This document shows positions 45,550 through 56,218 of a DNA stretch of 64,000 nt, one piece after another. Position numbers and translations under genes: made by a program. Source of the stretch: Brumimicrobium mesophilum. Lineage in GTDB: Bacteria > Bacteroidota > Bacteroidia > Flavobacteriales_D > Crocinitomicaceae. The stretch is taken from positions 186,001-250,000 of the forward strand of contig NZ_PVSS01000005.1 of the NCBI RefSeq assembly GCF_003025005.1, in the 5' to 3' direction. Below the pieces are notes generated by a model. The model had not been told where the DNA came from, searched no databases, and saw nothing but the letters and a program-made list of their open reading frames with translations. Each line of letters begins with the position of its first letter. Position 1 is the stretch's first letter.

Positions 45550-47688
45550 ATGATGATTCAAAATCTTAGAAAAATTTTCACTTTGTTATTGCTTACTCCT
45601 TATTTGCTGGTAGCACAAGATAGTACATTCAACAACTTTAAGACTACCTTATCCTCAGGAGAACCACCAGCGATATTTGTAACATCTTTTAAAGATAAAA
45701 TAGCTGCTAAAATTGAAAGCAAGTCCAACTTAGGAGAAGACGATATAGAAAATTTCGCACTCTATACCAATTACGCATTAAATAATTTACTTCAATCTGG
45801 CTCTGTTTTATATGGAGATCCAATGACACAATTTGTCCAAAAAATTGCCGACAAGCTTTTAGAGAATGATGCTAAATTGAAAAGCGAGTTACAGTTTTAT
45901 GTAATAAAAACGAATATCACAAACGCACTTTGTACAGACCCTGGGGTAATATTTATCACTACAGGGTTAATTTCTCAAATTGAGAATGAAGCCCAATTGG
46001 CTTACATAATTGCCCATGAGATTGTACATTATCAGGAAAAACACCTTGAAGAATCTTATTCTAAATCTAAGGAGAATGATTTAGATCCAAACTCCTCCTA
46101 TGAGGATTTGGTTTTACTTTCTAAAGACCATGAATTTGAAGCTGATAAAAATGCTTTAAAAATTTATCATTCAGCGGGTTATTCTCACAAGGAAATCAAC
46201 ACCGTTTTTGATGTACTAATGTATTCCTATTTATCTTTTGATGAAATAAATATTGATCAAAGTTTTTTCGGAAATCCAAACATTTATGTCCCAGAGTCGC
46301 TTTTCCCTGAAAACGCAAATCCAATATTGGCTTTTGAAGATTACGATGACAGGAAAAGTACACATCCAAATATTAGAAAAAGGAAAGACGCCATTGCTAA
46401 GGAAATAGACAAATATCAAGATTGGAAAAACAACACAAATTACATTTCTTTAGAGGAATTTAATCATGTGCAAAACATTTCTAGACTTGAGTCTGTTCGT
46501 GGTAATTTGATTACAGCCAACTATGTTAAAGCATTATATGAAATATATATTTTAGAAAAGATAATTCCAAATAATGAATATCTTCAAACTTCAAAAGCTT
46601 TTGCATGGAACGCGATGAGTCAAACGTCCATTTCAGGTAAAAAAAGAACATTCCTTAATAACTTAGACGAAAAAGAAGGAGCTATTTCAATGCTATATGG
46701 CTTTTTAAATAACTTGAGCAGGGAGGAAATGGCTTTAATGGCTGTTAGGCAAGCGGAAGATGCTTATCTAAAATTCCCTTCATCTACACAATTAAAATCC
46801 ATCAGAAATCAAACAATCTCGAACTTAGCACATTTAAGAAATTTTGAAATCAAAACACTTGAAAAAATAAGTTTTAATGCTGCAATTGATTTAAGAGAAA
46901 ATAATGATAAGGATTCAATCATTTCTGACACTTTAGAAATAGAAGAAGAAACAAAATATGATAGAATCAGAAGAATTCGTGAACAACAAAGTTCTTCGGG
47001 AAGCACAGCTGAACTAATAGATGAAAACTTCTCTACTTTTTTACTCTTCGACTTGGCGTCAAACCGCGAATTTTATGAACTATATGAAAAAGAACAAGAA
47101 GATTTAAAGCTTCAAAAAGAAAATAAATTAAGCAGTAAGTCAAAAAAAGAACGTAAGGAGATTGTCAAAATCGAAGAACAAAAATTAAAGGAAAGTGATA
47201 TAATTTTAATTACACCTCATTTAGAGGCTTCCAAAAAGGGTAGATTTGATTTAGAACAAACTTTGACATTTTATGAAATAATGACAGAGGAAGTTTTAAA
47301 ATACGCTCCAAAAGACAGACTCCATAATAAAGATATTGCGCTAGGAGAAAATTTCACTACTAAAAAGCATAATGAATCTAGTCTTATCAATTCGTTTTTA
47401 ATTCAAATATCCAACCTTGAAAACAGCAAATTTGGAACATTAATTTTCGATTATGAAGAGTTTGATCAATTATTCGCAAATTATAAAAATCCTTATCTTC
47501 TATTAATAACAGGTAAAGCCAACAAATCATCGTCTCTCAGTAATAGTCTTTCAGGACAAGCACAATACATTGAAGTTTCAACAGGTGAGGTGTCAGGGTC
47601 TGGTTACTATTCTGTTCCAATGAAAATTAGAAAAGAATCAGTTGGTGGATTAGCATTTGAAATATTCTCTAAATTTAATTTGAAATAA
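45550..47688 (+). CDS. Exported M48-family metalloprotease (copy A)
   Basis: 712 residues from the ATG at 45550 (the frame reaches a TTG at 45529; a second ATG follows at 45553). A signal peptide (about 1-22, ending LLVAQ) is followed by the peptidase domain, with zinc site H156-E-I-V-H160 (AHEIVHYQEKH) and third ligand E195 in EFEADKNAL. The C-terminal about 450 residues are helical, with lysine/glutamate-rich stretches. They end in a beta-rich module containing GQAQYIEVSTGEVSGSGYY. Without membrane helices it is probably periplasmic or outer-membrane-associated, like BepA-type M48 enzymes. The gene is first of seven packed genes and is paralogous along its length to 53117-55225. Confidence 0.88.
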   Translation: MMIQNLRKIFTLLLLTPYLLVAQDSTFNNFKTTLSSGEPPAIFVTSFKDKIAAKIESKSNLGEDDIENFALYTNYALNNLLQSGSVLYGDPMTQFVQKIADKLLENDAKLKSELQFYVIKTNITNALCTDPGVIFITTGLISQIENEAQLAYIIAHEIVHYQEKHLEESYSKSKENDLDPNSSYEDLVLLSKDHEFEADKNALKIYHSAGYSHKEINTVFDVLMYSYLSFDEINIDQSFFGNPNIYVPESLFPENANPILAFEDYDDRKSTHPNIRKRKDAIAKEIDKYQDWKNNTNYISLEEFNHVQNISRLESVRGNLITANYVKALYEIYILEKIIPNNEYLQTSKAFAWNAMSQTSISGKKRTFLNNLDEKEGAISMLYGFLNNLSREEMALMAVRQAEDAYLKFPSSTQLKSIRNQTISNLAHLRNFEIKTLEKISFNAAIDLRENNDKDSIISDTLEIEEETKYDRIRRIREQQSSSGSTAELIDENFSTFLLFDLASNREFYELYEKEQEDLKLQKENKLSSKSKKERKEIVKIEEQKLKESDIILITPHLEASKKGRFDLEQTLTFYEIMTEEVLKYAPKDRLHNKDIALGENFTTKKHNESSLINSFLIQISNLENSKFGTLIFDYEEFDQLFANYKNPYLLLITGKANKSSSLSNSLSGQAQYIEVSTGEVSGSGYYSVPMKIRKESVGGLAFEIFSKFNLK

Positions 47689-47689
47689 A

Positions 47690-48550
47690 ATGAAAATAAC
47701 TTGTTTACTTAGCTTTGTATTTATTTCTACTGTATTTAGCCTTTCTGTAACGGGACAAGATTCATATTTTTTTAATCAAAAAAATATGTTTTCTGTTCGT
47801 GCTAGCTTTAATCCAAGGTTAATACCTATGCGACAAGACAATAACAGTTATTCGCAGGATGGGATAGGACGTGGAACGTACTATCAGTATTACGATGAAA
47901 GCAATAAACTTTATGAAAATAATCAGAGATATAACTTAATGTTGAATACTTCTTATGCTAGATTATATGATGGAAACAAAATAATCGGTGTTGAATTCAA
48001 TTATCAAAAACACAATCTCACCATGAATGAGAATGCAAATTGGTACAGTTATCAAGAAATAGATGGTTCTTATATCACAGAGCCATTCTTAATTTCTACT
48101 CCAGTTTTTAACGTTTTTGATATTCAAATACTTTCTGGAAGATTTAATGGTAATTTCATTTCTCCCAATAAACACTTATGGACTTATGGTCTTGGCGTGA
48201 GAATATTTTCACTTGACCAAAATCAGAATTATCGCATGGATGTCGAGACCCCAATTACTGATTTGGAAAACTTAATAGAAGATTTTGATAGGGTCTACGT
48301 CTTCACTAGATTATCCATTAATTACACCTACCGTATTCTAATTACTAAAAGTTTAAGTTTAGATCTTGGTATTAATGCAAACTTTGGTCTGTACCAAGAA
48401 ATGGATCCTGTTTATGGAAACCCGGGGCAATCATTCTATGATGGAGGAAATTCACCTATTTATTCAAGGTATTTTGTAAAGAACAAATTAGGACATGAAA
48501 CTTTCTTCAATATCCTTTATTTCAGAAGTGGATTGTCTTTTGCATTATAA
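47690..48550 (+). CDS. Exported barrel-like protein (copy A), partner of M48 protease
   Basis: 286 residues, starting one base after the M48 stop. A signal peptide ends SVTGQ. The mature protein starts DSYFFNQKNMFSVRASFNPRL. It shows alternating aromatic beta segments (YNLMLNTSYARLY, GVEFNYQKHNLTM, LWTYGLGVRIFSL, LSLDLGINANFGLYQ) and a terminal aromatic-containing strand (FRSGLSFAL). This pattern suits a small outer-membrane beta-barrel. No named family recognised. Its paralogue is 55231-56061, which also directly follows an M48 gene. Confidence 0.75.
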   Translation: MKITCLLSFVFISTVFSLSVTGQDSYFFNQKNMFSVRASFNPRLIPMRQDNNSYSQDGIGRGTYYQYYDESNKLYENNQRYNLMLNTSYARLYDGNKIIGVEFNYQKHNLTMNENANWYSYQEIDGSYITEPFLISTPVFNVFDIQILSGRFNGNFISPNKHLWTYGLGVRIFSLDQNQNYRMDVETPITDLENLIEDFDRVYVFTRLSINYTYRILITKSLSLDLGINANFGLYQEMDPVYGNPGQSFYDGGNSPIYSRYFVKNKLGHETFFNILYFRSGLSFAL

Positions 48551-48559
48551 GAAGAAGCT

Positions 48560-50086
48560 ATGTTAAAAAAGCTATTTACATTCCTTGCGGTCGTCTTAAT
48601 TTCATTATCGGCTATATCACAAACTGTTATTTCAAGTGAAAAAACCGTTAAAAATAAACCATCAAAAAGGAGTTTATTGCATTTCCATAATGATTTAAGC
48701 ATCTTTTCGAAACGTTCCCTTGTCGCAAATCCAGGAGCTACCGGATATATGCTTCAAGTGTTTAAAGGAAAGAAAAAAGAAATAAAACGCTTCAATGCAA
48801 GTACTAAATTCAATGGTGATTTTTCTAATGTTACAGATTATATTTTTAGAGAAGAGTCCTTCCTAACAATTAACGAGTCGAAAATTGAAAATGTAATTAC
48901 TTTTCATTTACAAGAGTTTGACTACAATTTTAAAAAGATAGGTGAGCCAATAAAACTGGTAGAGATAGAAAATGAAACGAATAAACCTTTCGCAGCAGGA
49001 AATTATAATACTATTGGTATTTTTCAAGGTAAAACTTATGCTAAAAAATCTATACAATTCCAATACAACAAGGAGTCTAACCGTTATGTTTTGATTGTGG
49101 AAGTGGACATTTCTAATAGAATGGGATATTTGGAAATATTCGTATTTGATAGCGATTTTTCATTAATTACTTCCCACAATATTAAAGCAGAAAATGAGAA
49201 AGATAATATTACTGTTAGCGAGATAACGACATTACCACATGGCGAGATTTTGGCAATAGTTAAAAACATCAATGGAAGCCAAATTAATGAGTTTTATCTC
49301 CTTCATCTATTTGATGATGGTAACTATCAAGTTAATGATTTAAGACCTAACGAATCAACTTTAATCGATACTCAATTTAGCAATTATGGTACAAATGATA
49401 AAATCATAATTTCTATACTTTCTCAAAATTCAAATGGAAATTTAAGTGAAGGAACAATTCAAAATTACACCTATGACTGCATTTCATCTGAATTGACAGA
49501 AAAATCTATTGAAATCGACATTGAAGAAATAATCACAAGCGAATACAATAGTCTCACGACCATGGAAATTCAAAGGATTCATTATTTAAAAGATCAGTCT
49601 GTAGTGGCGCAATTATGTGAAACAAATTATAGTTACGGAAATGATGTAGCATCATCTCTTTCCAGCAAAAATATGGTAATTTTTAAAATTGAAAACGGGA
49701 ATGATTTGGCATGGATAAGACCAATAGAGAGGTATGGCTTTTTTAATTGGACTGAGACTTTCGGTGCTAATTTAGATTATCTTACCGATGATAACGATCT
49801 TGAAATTATTTTTAATGGCTCAGAAAGAGACTTTAGAGATGGATATTATTCAGCCAATAATTACGGTGTATTCAATAAAACAGGTACGAACTATAGGGCA
49901 ATTCCTGTAAAAGCAAAAATCAATTTAGCAAATGGTGAGGTTGAAATAAAACGCATTCTCCCTGATGAATATCTAAGTAACTTCTCTTTAGGGGACGCAC
50001 AAAAAATGGATGGAATAGGAGTTTATAAGCTGTTTGTTAAAAACGCCGGAAAATATAATGTTTCAGTAATAGATTTTAAGAAATAA
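48560..50086 (+). CDS. Exported protein of unrecognised family, tandem paralogue 1
   Basis: 508 residues with a signal peptide (about 1-21, ending LSAISQ). The mature protein is rich in beta-type segments and has no known domain that I can see. Near the C-terminus are LDYLTDDNDLEIIFNGSE, INLANGEVEIKRI, and the end GIGVYKLFVKNAGKYNVSVI then DFKK. These segments recur in the next two genes, so the three form one family. It starts nine bases after the barrel-like gene. A periplasmic or surface role is inferred only from the signal peptide. Confidence 0.75.
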   Translation: MLKKLFTFLAVVLISLSAISQTVISSEKTVKNKPSKRSLLHFHNDLSIFSKRSLVANPGATGYMLQVFKGKKKEIKRFNASTKFNGDFSNVTDYIFREESFLTINESKIENVITFHLQEFDYNFKKIGEPIKLVEIENETNKPFAAGNYNTIGIFQGKTYAKKSIQFQYNKESNRYVLIVEVDISNRMGYLEIFVFDSDFSLITSHNIKAENEKDNITVSEITTLPHGEILAIVKNINGSQINEFYLLHLFDDGNYQVNDLRPNESTLIDTQFSNYGTNDKIIISILSQNSNGNLSEGTIQNYTYDCISSELTEKSIEIDIEEIITSEYNSLTTMEIQRIHYLKDQSVVAQLCETNYSYGNDVASSLSSKNMVIFKIENGNDLAWIRPIERYGFFNWTETFGANLDYLTDDNDLEIIFNGSERDFRDGYYSANNYGVFNKTGTNYRAIPVKAKINLANGEVEIKRILPDEYLSNFSLGDAQKMDGIGVYKLFVKNAGKYNVSVIDFKK

Positions 50087-50111
50087 AGTGAACGCAATAA
50101 AAAATAACAAA

Positions 50112-51578
50112 ATGAAAAAAACAATATCAGTTTTAACGATTTTGATGTTGTCCTTGTCAATTAATGCTCAAGATATCATATCTTCTAACAAGGCCAAAAG
50201 AGTAAAAACCCTCAAAGGAGAAGGCTTGATTTATGCCAATGAAAACATTTATCTACAAAAGGTAAAAAGTAATAAAATAAGCATTTATAAAGATGGAAAT
50301 AAGGTTGGAAGTCAGAACTTCAATAAAAAAATTGATGGAGAACACACTAAGACTGTAGAAACCATTTATAGCAAAGAAGGAATTACGAGAATATACAGTG
50401 TAGAACAAGATCAATCTATTGAACTGTACACTCAGAAATATACTCTGGAATACAATCCGGTTGGCAGTCCGATGAAATTTGCTAATATTGAAATGGATCA
50501 AAACAACTTATCCACAACACAATACTATGCTGAAAACAATGAGCAAACTGGAAACACATTAATTTCTATTCATCTAAAATATCGAAATACCCCGAACCAA
50601 TTACAACTTTTCCTCTTCAATCAAGATTTCCAAGAATTAAATGCTTTGCATGCAACTGGTTCAACAAATTTCAGTCAATTTGAAATTATCACCTCTAAAG
50701 TATTAACCAATGATAAGGCAGTATTTCTAGTAAGAGAGTATGAACAAACTACCTCTGGATATACGACTACAAAAAACATTTTCGCTTCAAACATGATCAC
50801 TTTTAGTCAGGAAGAAGACCCTAAAATCAACGAAATACTACCTGATCATAGTAAAATAATTAAATACATAATTAGTGAGAACATAGCCGACAGCAAGGTC
50901 TTGATTGCTATTCAATCTCAACTAATCAATGATGACGCTGGGGAGCAAAACAACGAAAGAGATAAAAATATACTAGGAGTCTACACTTATAATTTTAAAA
51001 CTTCTGAATTATCCCGAAAAGCATACCCATTAGATCTCGAAATTAAAAAAACCAGAAGAGGTATTGGTTCTATCGCAAAGGTCATCTATGATAAGGAGGC
51101 CTCAAGTTATTTTGTATTTACATTACCCGGTTCTATTGGAGGAGTAGAATATGGAGCGCTAACCCTTAAATTGGATGAAGATGGTAAATACCTTTGGGGA
51201 AAACCTCTCACTAGAAAAGATGTTGCTAGCGTCACCTACAATCTAAATGGATATTTGATGTACATTAATGATCAAAATGAGTTAGAAATGATTTTCAACA
51301 GTAAGAAAAATGTCTTTAAAAAAGGAGAATATGAACCCAATGATAGCAATGGAATATGGTTTTTTCATAAAATGGACGTAGGAAAAAAAATCGTTCCTAT
51401 CAAAGCTACATTCAATTCTGAATCTGGAGAAATAGAGATTAATAGAATTTTCGAAAATGCAAATGTAAATTCAATTTCTTATAAAAATGCAATTGAAACT
51501 AATGAACAAGGCGTTTATTATACTATTCATAATATAGGAGGTAAAACATTTGTTTCAAAAATCAACTTTAAGAATTAA
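50112..51578 (+). CDS. Exported protein of unrecognised family, tandem paralogue 2
   Basis: 488 residues from the ATG at 50112. The frame extends to a GTG at 50088, but the ATG begins a good signal peptide (MKKTISVLTILMLSLSINAQ). C-terminal family motifs are LMYINDQNELEMIFNSKK, FNSESGEIEINRIF and GVYYTIHNIGGKTFVSKINF, followed by KN. It lacks the HFHxDL segment near the N-terminus that paralogues 1 and 3 have (LLHFHNDL, FRHFHDDL), and it is the shortest of the three. The gap to the next gene is four bases. Confidence 0.75.
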   Translation: MKKTISVLTILMLSLSINAQDIISSNKAKRVKTLKGEGLIYANENIYLQKVKSNKISIYKDGNKVGSQNFNKKIDGEHTKTVETIYSKEGITRIYSVEQDQSIELYTQKYTLEYNPVGSPMKFANIEMDQNNLSTTQYYAENNEQTGNTLISIHLKYRNTPNQLQLFLFNQDFQELNALHATGSTNFSQFEIITSKVLTNDKAVFLVREYEQTTSGYTTTKNIFASNMITFSQEEDPKINEILPDHSKIIKYIISENIADSKVLIAIQSQLINDDAGEQNNERDKNILGVYTYNFKTSELSRKAYPLDLEIKKTRRGIGSIAKVIYDKEASSYFVFTLPGSIGGVEYGALTLKLDEDGKYLWGKPLTRKDVASVTYNLNGYLMYINDQNELEMIFNSKKNVFKKGEYEPNDSNGIWFFHKMDVGKKIVPIKATFNSESGEIEINRIFENANVNSISYKNAIETNEQGVYYTIHNIGGKTFVSKINFKN

Positions 51579-51582
51579 AAAT

Positions 51583-53103
51583 ATGAATAAAATAATATCA
51601 GTGGTTACAATAGTGTTGGTGTCAATATCAATCAATGCGCAAGAGATTAGTTCATCTCAAAAAACAAAGAGACAAAATGAAGTAAAAGTTCAATTCCGTC
51701 ACTTCCACGACGATTTAATTATTAACGACTTATCAAATACTTTTATAGGAGGGGTTACAGATTTTAAAACATGGGGAACAACTCTTGGTAAGATAAATAT
51801 AGTAAAAGGTGAAGAGGTAATAGTAAAAAAATTCGACCCTCTTTTTTTAACCAGTAAAGGAGATAAATATGCCCGAGGCTTAATATTTAAAGACGACCGA
51901 TTTGGCATTTTAAATACAGCCATAAAGAGTGGAAGAATATCAATTGTAATGCAGGATTTTGATTACAAATTGAATAAAGCGGGAAGCCAAAGAGAAATTC
52001 TTGAAACCAATTTAACTATCGACGAGAAAACATTAGGTTTTGGTAGAAATATATCAACTCAAAACACTCACATTCACCACGATAAAAAAACAAATTCTGT
52101 TTTTTTAGAGTTAGAAGTAAAAAACTCTGAAAAAAGATCATTCTTAACATTGATGGTGTTAAATGAGGAATATGAAGAAATAAGCAGAATTACGATCCCT
52201 GCACAGGATCACAAAAAGGGTGTACAATTAGTAACCCATAAAGTGCTAGAAAATGGTGAGGCCTTTGCTATTGTTGAAGAAACTGATGGTTACGGTGACA
52301 TTCATGCATATAATTTCATACATTTTGCAAATGACGGAAGTAATAACCACGTAATAAAAGAGATTCTACCTGCCAAAAAAAGTATAATTAATAGTCAAAT
52401 CAGTGAGAATTCATTCGATGACAATGTAATCATTAGCATATTGTCTAGTGGTACTTTAAAGGATAAAGAAAGAGATAGTGGTGCATTAACAGCTTACAAA
52501 TACAACCTAAAAACTGGTGATATGGATTATATCACTTACGCTCTAAACAAGAACCAAGTATTAACTGGAAATGATAATAACTTACAAAATTTGAGGGATA
52601 TGAAAACTGAATTCCTTCCAGATGGTTCTGTTTTATTCTACATGTTTGGAGCTTACAAATCAGTAGCTTTATACCATGACAGAAGTATAATCGTAATAAA
52701 AGTTGATAAAAACGGAGAATTTCAATGGTTAAACACTATTGGCAGAAATTCTAAGAGTGTTGTGAAAAACAATACAGTAGGATATCTAACTTACCTTAAT
52801 GGAGAAGGCGATTTAGAAGTTATCTTTAATACTTCAAAATCAGCATTAAAAGGAGATTCATACTCACCTAATCTAGACGGCAATCCAGATTATTTAAATT
52901 TGGGAGGAACAGTTAAACCAGCAAAAGCAAAAATTAATCTGGAAACTGGAGAAATGGAAATTAAAGCAATCAATTTTGCTTCAAATATTAATTCGTTTTC
53001 TTTTCCATCTGCAAGAGAAATGGAAGAAGTGGGTGTTTATAAAATAATGCACAGTAAAGGAAAAGATACATATATTTCAACAGTTGATTTTAAAGATCAA
53101 TAA
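51583..53103 (+). CDS. Exported protein of unrecognised family, tandem paralogue 3
   Basis: 506 residues from the ATG at 51583. A TTG at 51550 is in frame but overlaps the previous gene. A signal peptide (MNKIISVVTIVLVSISINAQ) nearly repeats that of paralogue 2. Family motifs are FRHFHDDLIINDL at the mature N-terminus, LTYLNGEGDLEVIFNTSK, INLETGEMEIKAI and GVYKIMHSKGKDTYISTVDF near the end. It precedes the second M48 gene by 13 bases. No domain recognised. Confidence 0.75.
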   Translation: MNKIISVVTIVLVSISINAQEISSSQKTKRQNEVKVQFRHFHDDLIINDLSNTFIGGVTDFKTWGTTLGKINIVKGEEVIVKKFDPLFLTSKGDKYARGLIFKDDRFGILNTAIKSGRISIVMQDFDYKLNKAGSQREILETNLTIDEKTLGFGRNISTQNTHIHHDKKTNSVFLELEVKNSEKRSFLTLMVLNEEYEEISRITIPAQDHKKGVQLVTHKVLENGEAFAIVEETDGYGDIHAYNFIHFANDGSNNHVIKEILPAKKSIINSQISENSFDDNVIISILSSGTLKDKERDSGALTAYKYNLKTGDMDYITYALNKNQVLTGNDNNLQNLRDMKTEFLPDGSVLFYMFGAYKSVALYHDRSIIVIKVDKNGEFQWLNTIGRNSKSVVKNNTVGYLTYLNGEGDLEVIFNTSKSALKGDSYSPNLDGNPDYLNLGGTVKPAKAKINLETGEMEIKAINFASNINSFSFPSAREMEEVGVYKIMHSKGKDTYISTVDFKDQ

Positions 53104-53116
53104 AACTATCATAGGA

Positions 53117-55225
53117 ATGAATTACAATTTTTTAAAAACACTTTGCATAATTACGATTTTTATTCCATCGTTCTTAACTGCACAAAAGGATTCCTTTTCC
53201 AACTTTAAGACAACTCAATCTGTTGGAGAACCTCCTACTATTTTCACAACTTCATTTAAGGATAAAGTTGCAGAACGTGTTGAATCATCTAAGGATATTG
53301 AGAAAAATGACAGAGAACAATATGCATTATATACAAACTACTCTGTTAATTCTTTATTAAATTCTGGGCATATTCTATATGGCGACCCAATGACTAAATT
53401 CGTAAATAAAGTAGCGGATAAATTGTTGGAAAACGAACCGGGTTTAAAAAGAAAACTGCAGTTTTATGTAATCAAAACTAATACCACAAATGCTTTATGT
53501 ACTGATCCAGGTATTATTTTTATTACAACTGGTTTACTTTCTCAAATTGAAAACGAGGCACAATTGGCTTATGTAATTTCTCATGAAATTGTTCACTATC
53601 AAGAAAAACACCTTCAAAAATCTTTTAAAAAATCTAAAGAACAAGAATTAGAACCAACTTCATCTTATGAGGACATGGTTTTACTTTCAAAAGATCATGA
53701 GTTTGAAGCTGATGCAAATGCTTTAAAATTTTATCATGCAGCCGGTTATTCAGACAAAGAAGTAAACGTCGTTTTTGATGTTTTAATGTATTCCTACTTG
53801 TCGTTTGACGAAATCAATATTGATAGCACTTTCTTTGCTAAAAATGATGCTTTTATACCTCAATCTTATTTCCCTGAAGCAGCGAATCCAATTTTAGCTT
53901 TTGAAGACTATGATGACAGTAAAAGTAGCCATCCAAATATTCGAAAGAGAAGAGATGCCATATCAGAAGAAATCAAGAAATATGACAATTGGAAAGCCAA
54001 TTCTAACTTCATTGCTTTAGAAGAATTTAAGCACGTTCAAAATATTGCCCGATTCGAGTCTATTAGAGAAAATATATTGGTAGGCAATTATTTAAAAGCT
54101 CTTTATGAAATTTATATCTTAGAAAAAACATTTCCTAACAATGAATATTTGCAAACAAGTAAAGCACTTACTTGGGCAACAATGAATCAAATTTCTGTTG
54201 GCAGAAGCTTAAGAAGTGTTGTTAAAGATGATGATGAAATAGAAGGCCAATTATCACTTCTTTATGGCTTTTTCAAAAAGTTGAATAAAGAAGAAATGGC
54301 TCTATTGACTATCAGAATCGTTCAAGATGTTTGTCTAGAATTTCCAGCATCAGAAAGGTTAAAAGAAATTAAAAAAGAAAGCATTGAAAATTTAGCTCAT
54401 GTTAGAAATTTCAAATTTGAAGAATTAAAAAGTAAATCTTATACACAAGCTAATTTAGATTTTGAACTTAGTTTGAATGATACAATTGCTGATATTGATA
54501 CGATTGTTCCAGAAAATGAATCCAAATATGATAGAATTAAACGAATTAGGGAAGAGCAAGTAATTTCTGTAAACGAAAGCCATTTAGAAGAACAATTTTT
54601 CTCTCTTTTTCTTTTGCACGATCTTGTGAATGATGAGGAATTCAAAAAAACAATCGAGGAAGAAAAAGAAAAGCTCGTACTTTCAAGAACTTCTAGTTAC
54701 AAAAAGTCTAATTCAGATGATGATAACAAATTGATAGGAGATATTATCTTAATTACCCCAAAATTGAAAGCTAAAAAAAATGGAGATTTTGATTTGGAAT
54801 CTACTTTGTTGTTCTATGAATATTTAAAAGGAGGCGTAGATAGACATGCTCCTAAAGAACGATTAAAATTAAGAGATAATCTGGAAGTTGAAGATTTCAC
54901 TACAGAAAAACACAATGAAGTAAGTATACTCATATCTTACATAATTCAATTTTCAAATTCGAAAAATAAAGATTTTAAAAATTTATTGGTGGATTATGAA
55001 GAAATGAAATCAATTATTGCCAAATATGACAATCCACAACTCTTATTGATTTCTGGAGATTATTATTACAATAAATTAACCGACAAAGCTATTTCGGGAA
55101 ATGCCAGTTATATTGAACTCAAAACAGGTAATATTTATAGTACCCGAAATTACATTTCCAAATACAAACTAAATAAGATCTCTGTTGAAGGATTTACACA
55201 CCTTATTTTCAACCAACTAAAATAA
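53117..55225 (+). CDS. Exported M48-family metalloprotease (copy B)
   Basis: 702 residues from the ATG at 53117. The frame extends to a TTG at 53084 within the previous gene. A signal peptide ends PSFLTAQ. The zinc site is H156-E-I-V-H160 (SHEIVHYQEKH) with third ligand E195 in EFEADANAL, at the same residue numbers as copy A. The C-terminus carries a parallel beta-rich module (GNASYIELKTGNIYSTRNY). The two copies share long conserved blocks (YGDPMT, TTNALCTDPGIIFITTGLLS, MYSYLSFDEINID) but differ at the DNA level, so the duplication is not recent. Periplasmic proteolysis or chaperone-like quality control, as in BepA, is an analogy only. Confidence 0.88.
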   Translation: MNYNFLKTLCIITIFIPSFLTAQKDSFSNFKTTQSVGEPPTIFTTSFKDKVAERVESSKDIEKNDREQYALYTNYSVNSLLNSGHILYGDPMTKFVNKVADKLLENEPGLKRKLQFYVIKTNTTNALCTDPGIIFITTGLLSQIENEAQLAYVISHEIVHYQEKHLQKSFKKSKEQELEPTSSYEDMVLLSKDHEFEADANALKFYHAAGYSDKEVNVVFDVLMYSYLSFDEINIDSTFFAKNDAFIPQSYFPEAANPILAFEDYDDSKSSHPNIRKRRDAISEEIKKYDNWKANSNFIALEEFKHVQNIARFESIRENILVGNYLKALYEIYILEKTFPNNEYLQTSKALTWATMNQISVGRSLRSVVKDDDEIEGQLSLLYGFFKKLNKEEMALLTIRIVQDVCLEFPASERLKEIKKESIENLAHVRNFKFEELKSKSYTQANLDFELSLNDTIADIDTIVPENESKYDRIKRIREEQVISVNESHLEEQFFSLFLLHDLVNDEEFKKTIEEEKEKLVLSRTSSYKKSNSDDDNKLIGDIILITPKLKAKKNGDFDLESTLLFYEYLKGGVDRHAPKERLKLRDNLEVEDFTTEKHNEVSILISYIIQFSNSKNKDFKNLLVDYEEMKSIIAKYDNPQLLLISGDYYYNKLTDKAISGNASYIELKTGNIYSTRNYISKYKLNKISVEGFTHLIFNQLK

Positions 55226-55230
55226 ATATT

Positions 55231-56061
55231 GTGACTCTAAAAAAAATATTTATAGTATTTAGTCTAATAATATGTTCTTCACTTCAATTGTGGTCTCAAT
55301 ATGACTACTTTTTTGGTAACAGGAATATATTTGCTATCCATCTCAATGGAAACCCTCGTTTAAAAGCAACTATTATGGATAACAAAATCCCTTCATTTGT
55401 TAGCGATTCAGAATATGGAACATATTATTATGAACGTGATAATAACGATGAGCTAGTTGTTAAACAACAAAAAGTAAATTTGATGTTAAATTTATTTTAT
55501 GGTCGACTCGTAAGAAATAGAATTTTATTGGGAGTAGATTTCAGTTATCAAAAACATCATATCACTGCTTTCGAACATGAACTTAACCCAGAATACGATA
55601 TAGTTAACCCTGTATATAACATTATTGAAATTCAAGGTTCTTTCGGGATTTTTTTAGGACAATCTATTGCTCCAAACAAGCATTTGCTGCAATTCCAATA
55701 TGGTCCAAGATTGTTTTTTATTAAAAATAATTATAACTCCGATGATGGAAATAGTGAAACAGAACTAGATCAACTTTACACCACAGTTGATTATAAAATA
55801 CCCATGCACTTCATGCGTTTTTCAGTAAACTATACCTATCGTCAAATGCTAACAGAAAATCTTAATTTAGACCTCGGTGTAACAACCAACTTTGGAATAT
55901 ATAGTACATTTTTAGACCCATACTCCCCTTTTTATTATGATTATTATACAGGATCTATCAATTTTTTAACTTATAGCCCTTCTTATATGAAAAGTAGATT
56001 AGCCAGAGAAACCATGAGAAACATTCTATATTTCAAGGTTGGACTTTCTTATAATTTTTAA
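55231..56061 (+). CDS. Exported barrel-like protein (copy B), partner of M48 protease
   Basis: 276 residues, with GTG start codon at 55231, five bases after the M48 stop. A signal peptide ends LQLWSQ. The mature protein starts YDYFFGNRNIFAIHLNGNPRL, matching the start of copy A. Conserved blocks include GVDFSYQKHHIT, IAPNKHLLQFQYGPRLF, FSVNYTYRQML and NLDLGVTTNFGIY, and it ends LYFKVGLSYNF. A small outer-membrane barrel is likely from the strand pattern. It closes the seven-gene cluster. Confidence 0.75.
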   Translation: MTLKKIFIVFSLIICSSLQLWSQYDYFFGNRNIFAIHLNGNPRLKATIMDNKIPSFVSDSEYGTYYYERDNNDELVVKQQKVNLMLNLFYGRLVRNRILLGVDFSYQKHHITAFEHELNPEYDIVNPVYNIIEIQGSFGIFLGQSIAPNKHLLQFQYGPRLFFIKNNYNSDDGNSETELDQLYTTVDYKIPMHFMRFSVNYTYRQMLTENLNLDLGVTTNFGIYSTFLDPYSPFYYDYYTGSINFLTYSPSYMKSRLARETMRNILYFKVGLSYNF

Positions 56062-56133: not shown

Positions 56134-56163
56134 TTGGAATTCGAAATAATTTAATTACATTTG
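56134..56163 (+). promoter_or_regulatory. Promoter of rimP-nusA-infB
   Basis: TTG (56134-56136), a 19-bp spacer and TACATTTG (56156-56163) match the Bacteroidota consensus. Transcription should start near 56171, giving a leader of about 54 bases that contains the hairpin at 56193-56218. Confidence 0.75.
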
Positions 56164-56192
56164 CACTGTTTTATATGTAAAATTAATAGAAC

Positions 56193-56218
56193 GAGGGGAC
56201 ATTTTGTCCCCTCTTTTT
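56193..56218 (+). terminator. Terminator-like hairpin in the rimP leader (candidate attenuator)
   Basis: GAGGGGACA/TGTCCCCTC (56193-56201 and 56205-56213) is a perfect 9-bp stem with a 3-base loop, followed by five T residues. It lies between the promoter and the rimP ATG (56225), so it is placed to stop transcription early or to mask the translation start. Because nusA is in the operon, feedback by NusA is plausible. Confidence 0.75.

Follow-up and report, generated by a model that had tools for sequence, protein, structure and literature searches.

What is the conserved unit in a cluster of seven genes that stands between core operons of Brumimicrobium mesophilum, and what might its products do for the cell? 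The cluster occupies positions 45550-56061 of the window analyzed here, a stretch of 64,000 nucleotides (contig NZ_PVSS01000005.1, positions 186,001 to 250,000 of the forward strand). All seven genes lie on the + strand, with stop-to-start gaps of 1, 9, 25, 4, 13 and 5 bases, and they encode, in order, an M48 metalloprotease (M48-A), a small barrel-like protein (barrel-A), three paralogous proteins, a second protease (M48-B) and a second barrel-like protein (barrel-B). A preliminary description had taken these for a secreted system of three protein families. We conclude that the conserved unit is smaller, a two-gene module of one M48 protease and one barrel: the adjacency of these two families recurs across the order and their link is strongly supported, whereas the three paralogues are not core parts. 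The pair is probably a unit for assembly or quality control of the cell envelope in a bacterial family whose members are mostly aquatic.

The evidence for the module comes from relatives of the source genome. Our sample of 140 regions was chosen from the listed places, 119 for an M48 match and 21 for a match to the paralogues. M48 genes of more than 350 amino acids numbered 133 (shorter fragments were not counted), and two of 350-600 amino acids (L216 and L219) were dropped, so that 131 were counted. A barrel profile, A4, was made from 37 sequences of the first loci and applied to 80 further regions; the loci not used for the profile are called held-out below, and as many of them come from the same genera, they do not count as independent lineages. 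In held-out loci of the same family, the next same-strand gene after an M48 of more than 600 amino acids is a barrel homologue in 57 of 59 cases. For other families of the order the count is 16 of 22, and the remaining six comprise three loci with a size-matched neighbor that the profile does not match and three with none. The loci used in training gave 40 of 49, with eight misses and one M48 at a contig end. Away from M48, the profile matched 4 of 706, 4 of 550, 4 of 143 and 0 of 339 open reading frames (ORFs) in four sets. Aligned as profiles, the barrels of the genus proved homologous to those from other genera (hhalign 99.5%, E 2e-22, with 6.8% for a reversed control; this set included one stray non-barrel ORF, L064, which is absent from A4).

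Do the two genes also come and go together? In a cross-table of 36 genomes of the family, compiled by hand, 22 have both, two have M48 only, none has the barrel only and 12 have neither, so that 34 of 36 are concordant (Fisher p 7e-8, kinship between genomes ignored). At E 1e-30 the M48 itself occurs in 102 of 200 genomes from the family and in 2 of 395 from a phylum sample, one of the two being the source genome; at E 1e-20 it occurs in 123 of 399 genomes of the order, where matches near the limit may be other M48 proteins. In several genera (for instance L070:9001-9771) the pair lies directly behind a gene of about 257 codons that one check with a hidden Markov model (HMM) assigned to nadE, NAD synthase.

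The two genes of a pair overlap or sit a few bases apart, and there is one barrel per protease. Such an arrangement would also suit a barrel that is the client of its neighbor, the M48 being a dedicated clearance protease for a single barrel species, perhaps a porin or transporter, co-expressed with it for control of its level or quality, with the paralogues independent of both. The substrates identified for BepA (YfgC, the beta-barrel assembly-enhancing protease of Escherichia coli) that are named in PMC13067283, BamA and LptD, are indeed barrels. However, a transporter free of its protease would then be expected in places, yet an M48 is unlisted beside only 2 of 32 barrel places in a count made by hand (28 abut an M48 and two probably do), and the barrel is retained beside proteases that have lost their zinc site, as described below. 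We regard this explanation as unlikely.

The proteases themselves are well preserved. M48-A (45550-47688, +, 712 amino acids) and M48-B (53117-55225, +, 702 amino acids) are 56% identical and match Pfam PF01435 with E values of 1.1e-15 and 1.2e-14, respectively. Both carry HEIVH at residues 156-160, E195 within HEFEAD and HPNIRKR at 272-278, which bears out the earlier statement that each has an intact zinc site at H156, H160 and E195. Across the 131 relatives, HExxH is present in 128, a lipobox-like motif in three and HPx4R, the active-site plug of the M48 family described in PMC7950410, in 128. Two genomes of the genus encode zinc-dead copies (L060:9506-11512 and L061:8565-10586; 56% identity over 668 residues) in which H156, H160 and H272 are replaced by R, by V or I, and by F; both copies have a barrel gene next to them, on the downstream side. 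A third such copy, L168 of another family of the order, keeps H156 but has lost H160 and H272, and its neighbor has a barrel-like size without matching the profile. That zinc-dead copies are retained together with a barrel would agree with a function other than proteolysis alone. A chaperone-like activity is described for BepA in PMC8423444, although BepA's own active-site mutant is impaired in it.

How close is the likeness to BepA? Both window proteases share with it a secreted M48 domain with HExxH...E and the HPx4R plug, followed by a predicted helical region. In an AlphaFold2 (AF2) model of M48-A, the protease domain is followed by a helical region at about residues 300-545, a possible counterpart of the TPR domain of BepA, and a C-terminal alpha/beta domain at about 542-712, and BepA chains are among the best solved-structure matches to the model, aligning over residues 56-598 at 5-8 Å root-mean-square deviation. 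On the other hand, M48-A and M48-B score 57.6 and 53 bits, respectively, against a cut-off of 570 for the BepA model NF052400 of NCBIfam, and they differ from BepA in their extra C-terminal domain, in the adjoining barrel gene and in being found almost only in one order. The fold search suggests that the modeled residues 542-712 resemble PelC, CsgG, the N-terminal domain of TolB (TolB-N), LptE and PqiC; no family-level sequence match was found for this part of M48-A. The likeness to those proteins is one of predicted fold, and the window domain differs from them in being fused to a protease.

Two further explanations turn on this C-terminal region. The M48s might be ordinary secreted peptidases, digestive or housekeeping, that happen to lie beside a generic porin, as M48 peptidases are widespread and Pfam detects the M48 domain only. 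Against this, similarity over the full length of the protein, the long C-terminal region included, goes with barrel pairing across families of the order, and the plug motif is retained, so we think it very improbable. The second is that the PelC/CsgG-like domain and the barrel form an export ring in the outer membrane and that the exported product, which in this genus might be the paralogues, is trimmed by the protease. The predicted resemblance of residues 542-712 to PelC and CsgG would favor such a machine, as would the paralogue genes that lie between or beside modules in four genomes of the genus; even so, we hold it to be improbable, if somewhat less so than an ordinary peptidase. A part in anti-phage defense was also considered and is unsupported: PADLOC gave a single match, to Lit, at 14.6 bits (E 0.0037) over residues 150-183 of M48-A, and none for the other six proteins.

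Is the partner truly a barrel? Barrel-A (47690-48550, +, 286 amino acids) has a signal-peptide-like N-terminus, ends in L and is homologous by profile to the genes that follow M48 elsewhere; barrel-B (55231-56061, +, 276 amino acids, GTG start) is 39% identical to it and ends in F. Among 124 barrel members the last residue is F in 49% and L in 40%, compared with 9% and 9% for 1328 control ORFs of more than 150 amino acids, and 106 of the 124 pass a signal-peptide heuristic that 494 of the 1328 controls pass. Pfam OMP_b-brl matches 3 of 37 members weakly, the only Pfam match of barrel-A is below threshold and to an unrelated domain, and a sequence search of the PDB with the barrels returned nothing significant. 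These barrel-type C-termini and secretion-type N-termini suggest, at the level of sequence, a putative membrane barrel.

The three middle genes, paralogue 1 (48560-50086, +, 508 amino acids), paralogue 2 (50112-51578, +, 488 amino acids) and paralogue 3 (51583-53103, +, 506 amino acids), belong to a family of secreted propeller-like proteins of about 520 amino acids. The AF2 model of paralogue 3 is predicted to be all-beta and propeller-like, and its structure matches are generic, with EMC1, DPPIV and WD40 proteins ranking as high as other propellers or higher; a PDB sequence search with the paralogues gave nothing significant. A rival explanation makes these genes mere passengers, in one operon with the M48-barrel pairs but unrelated to them in function. 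Their family is present in 198 of 200 genomes of the bacterial family, against the 102 for M48, it abuts an M48 in 8 of 131 M48 loci, and at least 15 of 35 members of its tree lie near purB (a label given for a sequence motif within three genes and checked once by HMM; the motif missed at least one purB-like neighbor, at L105). The families thus occur mostly apart, which counts against the paralogues as core parts, and we reject the seven-gene unit as a conserved system. However, where a paralogue does abut an M48 it is on the same strand with gaps of 0-18 bases, it is upstream of the M48 in seven of the eight cases, and the M48-adjacent lineages fall in separate parts of the paralogue tree, albeit one with long branches. 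This recurrence makes a link likely in the lineages where the two are adjacent, and we judge the passenger explanation to be a serious possibility that nevertheless falls short of an even chance.

Other members of the family have their own surroundings. Four of them stand in tandem behind purB in a separate expansion (L111:5868-12594). A secreted barrel-like protein of about 217 amino acids with DDIFDDG near its start is encoded upstream of a paralogue-M48-barrel unit at L045:6872-7522 and L057:12711-13355 (27% identity between the two), and two short ORFs occupy its place at L213:9779-10441. Another family member in the source genome (L102:9811-12105) lies beside a gene for a secreted barrel-like protein of 222 amino acids that is unrelated by BLAST to the one at L045.

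What, then, might the module do? The proteolysis or assembly in the periplasm or outer membrane proposed in the preliminary description is still the best functional guess. Put more narrowly, we give about an even chance to a BepA-like module for outer-membrane assembly or quality control in which a dedicated barrel serves as dock or co-factor. Its core would be an M48 metalloprotease of BepA-like type in the periplasm, together with a small beta-barrel of the outer membrane that is dedicated to it; the protease would dock on its barrel, at the inner face of the outer membrane, through the PelC/CsgG/TolB-N-like domain, and there handle outer-membrane proteins that are being assembled or are damaged. 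With the HPx4R plug shut, clients would be held, and with the plug open they would be cut. In Brumimicrobium the module appears to have undergone duplication at the rnc-rimP site, where the tandemly expanded propeller-like protein was added to it; this protein would most likely be an adaptor that binds substrates. A bolder version, to which we assign perhaps one chance in four, is an assembly device specific to the order, in which each M48 has its own barrel dock as a membrane seat, protease, helical clamp and PelC/CsgG/TolB-N-type docking domain are on one chain, a propeller adaptor is added in some lineages, and copies without the zinc site persist purely as holdases, so that the fold of a protease would have become an assembly factor.

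That M48 proteases take part in outer-membrane biogenesis is already known; what sets the present pair apart is a C-terminal domain predicted to be fused to the protease, along with the linked barrel and the existence of zinc-dead copies. The E. coli proteases LoiP and YcaL are likewise tied to outer-membrane protein biogenesis in the account of PMC13067283, but they are lipoproteins, whereas M48-A and M48-B have no lipobox and are much longer. The beta-barrel assembly machinery (BAM) of Bacteroidota (BamA, D, G, H and lineage-specific subunits) acts at the outer membrane, as the M48-barrel pair probably does. Its subunit BamI, of Bacteroides and Porphyromonas, has a beta-propeller (PMC12578637), as the paralogues may, but BamI is a lipoprotein and the paralogues lack a lipobox; the FadL-like BamG is reported to occur throughout the phylum (PMC12611786, PMC12578637), whereas about half of the genomes in a single family have the M48-barrel pair. 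No subunit described in the accessible text of these reports matches the window proteins in type or distribution, and we found no sequence relation between the paralogues and BamB or other beta-propellers. Judged by titles and the starts of abstracts, the literature that we searched holds no description of an M48-barrel operon. How BepA-type proteases recognize stalled outer-membrane proteins is still open, as PMC13067283 puts it, and an enzyme with a linked barrel, an extra domain of outer-membrane type and natural zinc-dead copies makes holding versus cutting directly testable. The proposal also provides a function hypothesis, across a whole bacterial family, for two families without a clear Pfam name, and adds to the view that Bacteroidota use components of their own in building the outer membrane.

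How old is the locus? Among named genomes, the nearest relatives found for the source genome are B. glaciale, B. oceani and B. aurantiacum, labelled Crocinitomicaceae in the tree. In L038 and L039 the corresponding site contains M48-A, a barrel, one paralogue and M48-B, with the second barrel missing, and L040 has the order paralogue, M48, barrel, M48, barrel; such related but non-identical layouts in three named Brumimicrobium genomes show that the cluster is not due to chance. Paralogue 2 clusters with the one copy that L038 and L039 each have, and the closest copy to paralogue 3 (41% identity) is that of L040, where it immediately precedes the first M48. L121, from a further genome of the genus, has one M48 and one barrel with, directly behind them, a 40-codon paralogue match containing two stops. 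In the M48 tree, a branch with support of 99/97 sets 13 rnc-site proteins apart from the others, and M48-B groups with the second copies of L038-L040 (85/100), while the first copies do not come out as a group. A second genus, too, has M48s of the same clade behind acpP-fabF-rnc, in four genomes (L065, L066, L068 and L069), of which L065 and L068 also have the barrel. Since the clade is shared in this way, the site is older than the genus, which weakens the idea of a recent insertion: the cluster does lie where it had been placed, but that it was inserted between the core operons is doubtful. Elsewhere the source genome has a third, divergent M48-barrel pair (contig 9; L062) and a separate short M48 of 279 amino acids (L064).

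The remaining features concern the setting of the cluster. NCBIfam identifies the flanking genes as acpP, fabF and rnc upstream and rimP, nusA and infB downstream, and the picture of seven closely spaced genes for secreted proteins also stands, with all seven products passing the signal-peptide heuristic, simple and loose as its control rate shows it to be, and none having a lipobox. A sigma-70 promoter scan scored no better than shuffled sequence. A TANNTTTG box is absent between rnc and M48-A, and read-through from rnc is thus possible. At the right boundary, before the start of rimP, a promoter-like TACATTTG box is followed by a strong hairpin and a T-run (56156-56213, +; fold z -4.6). Four genomes of the genus have this element in almost unchanged form; most of the other loci stop short of rimP and so do not bear on its distribution. 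The element may act in the leader of the rimP-nusA-infB operon, as an attenuator, or it may be the terminator of the cluster.
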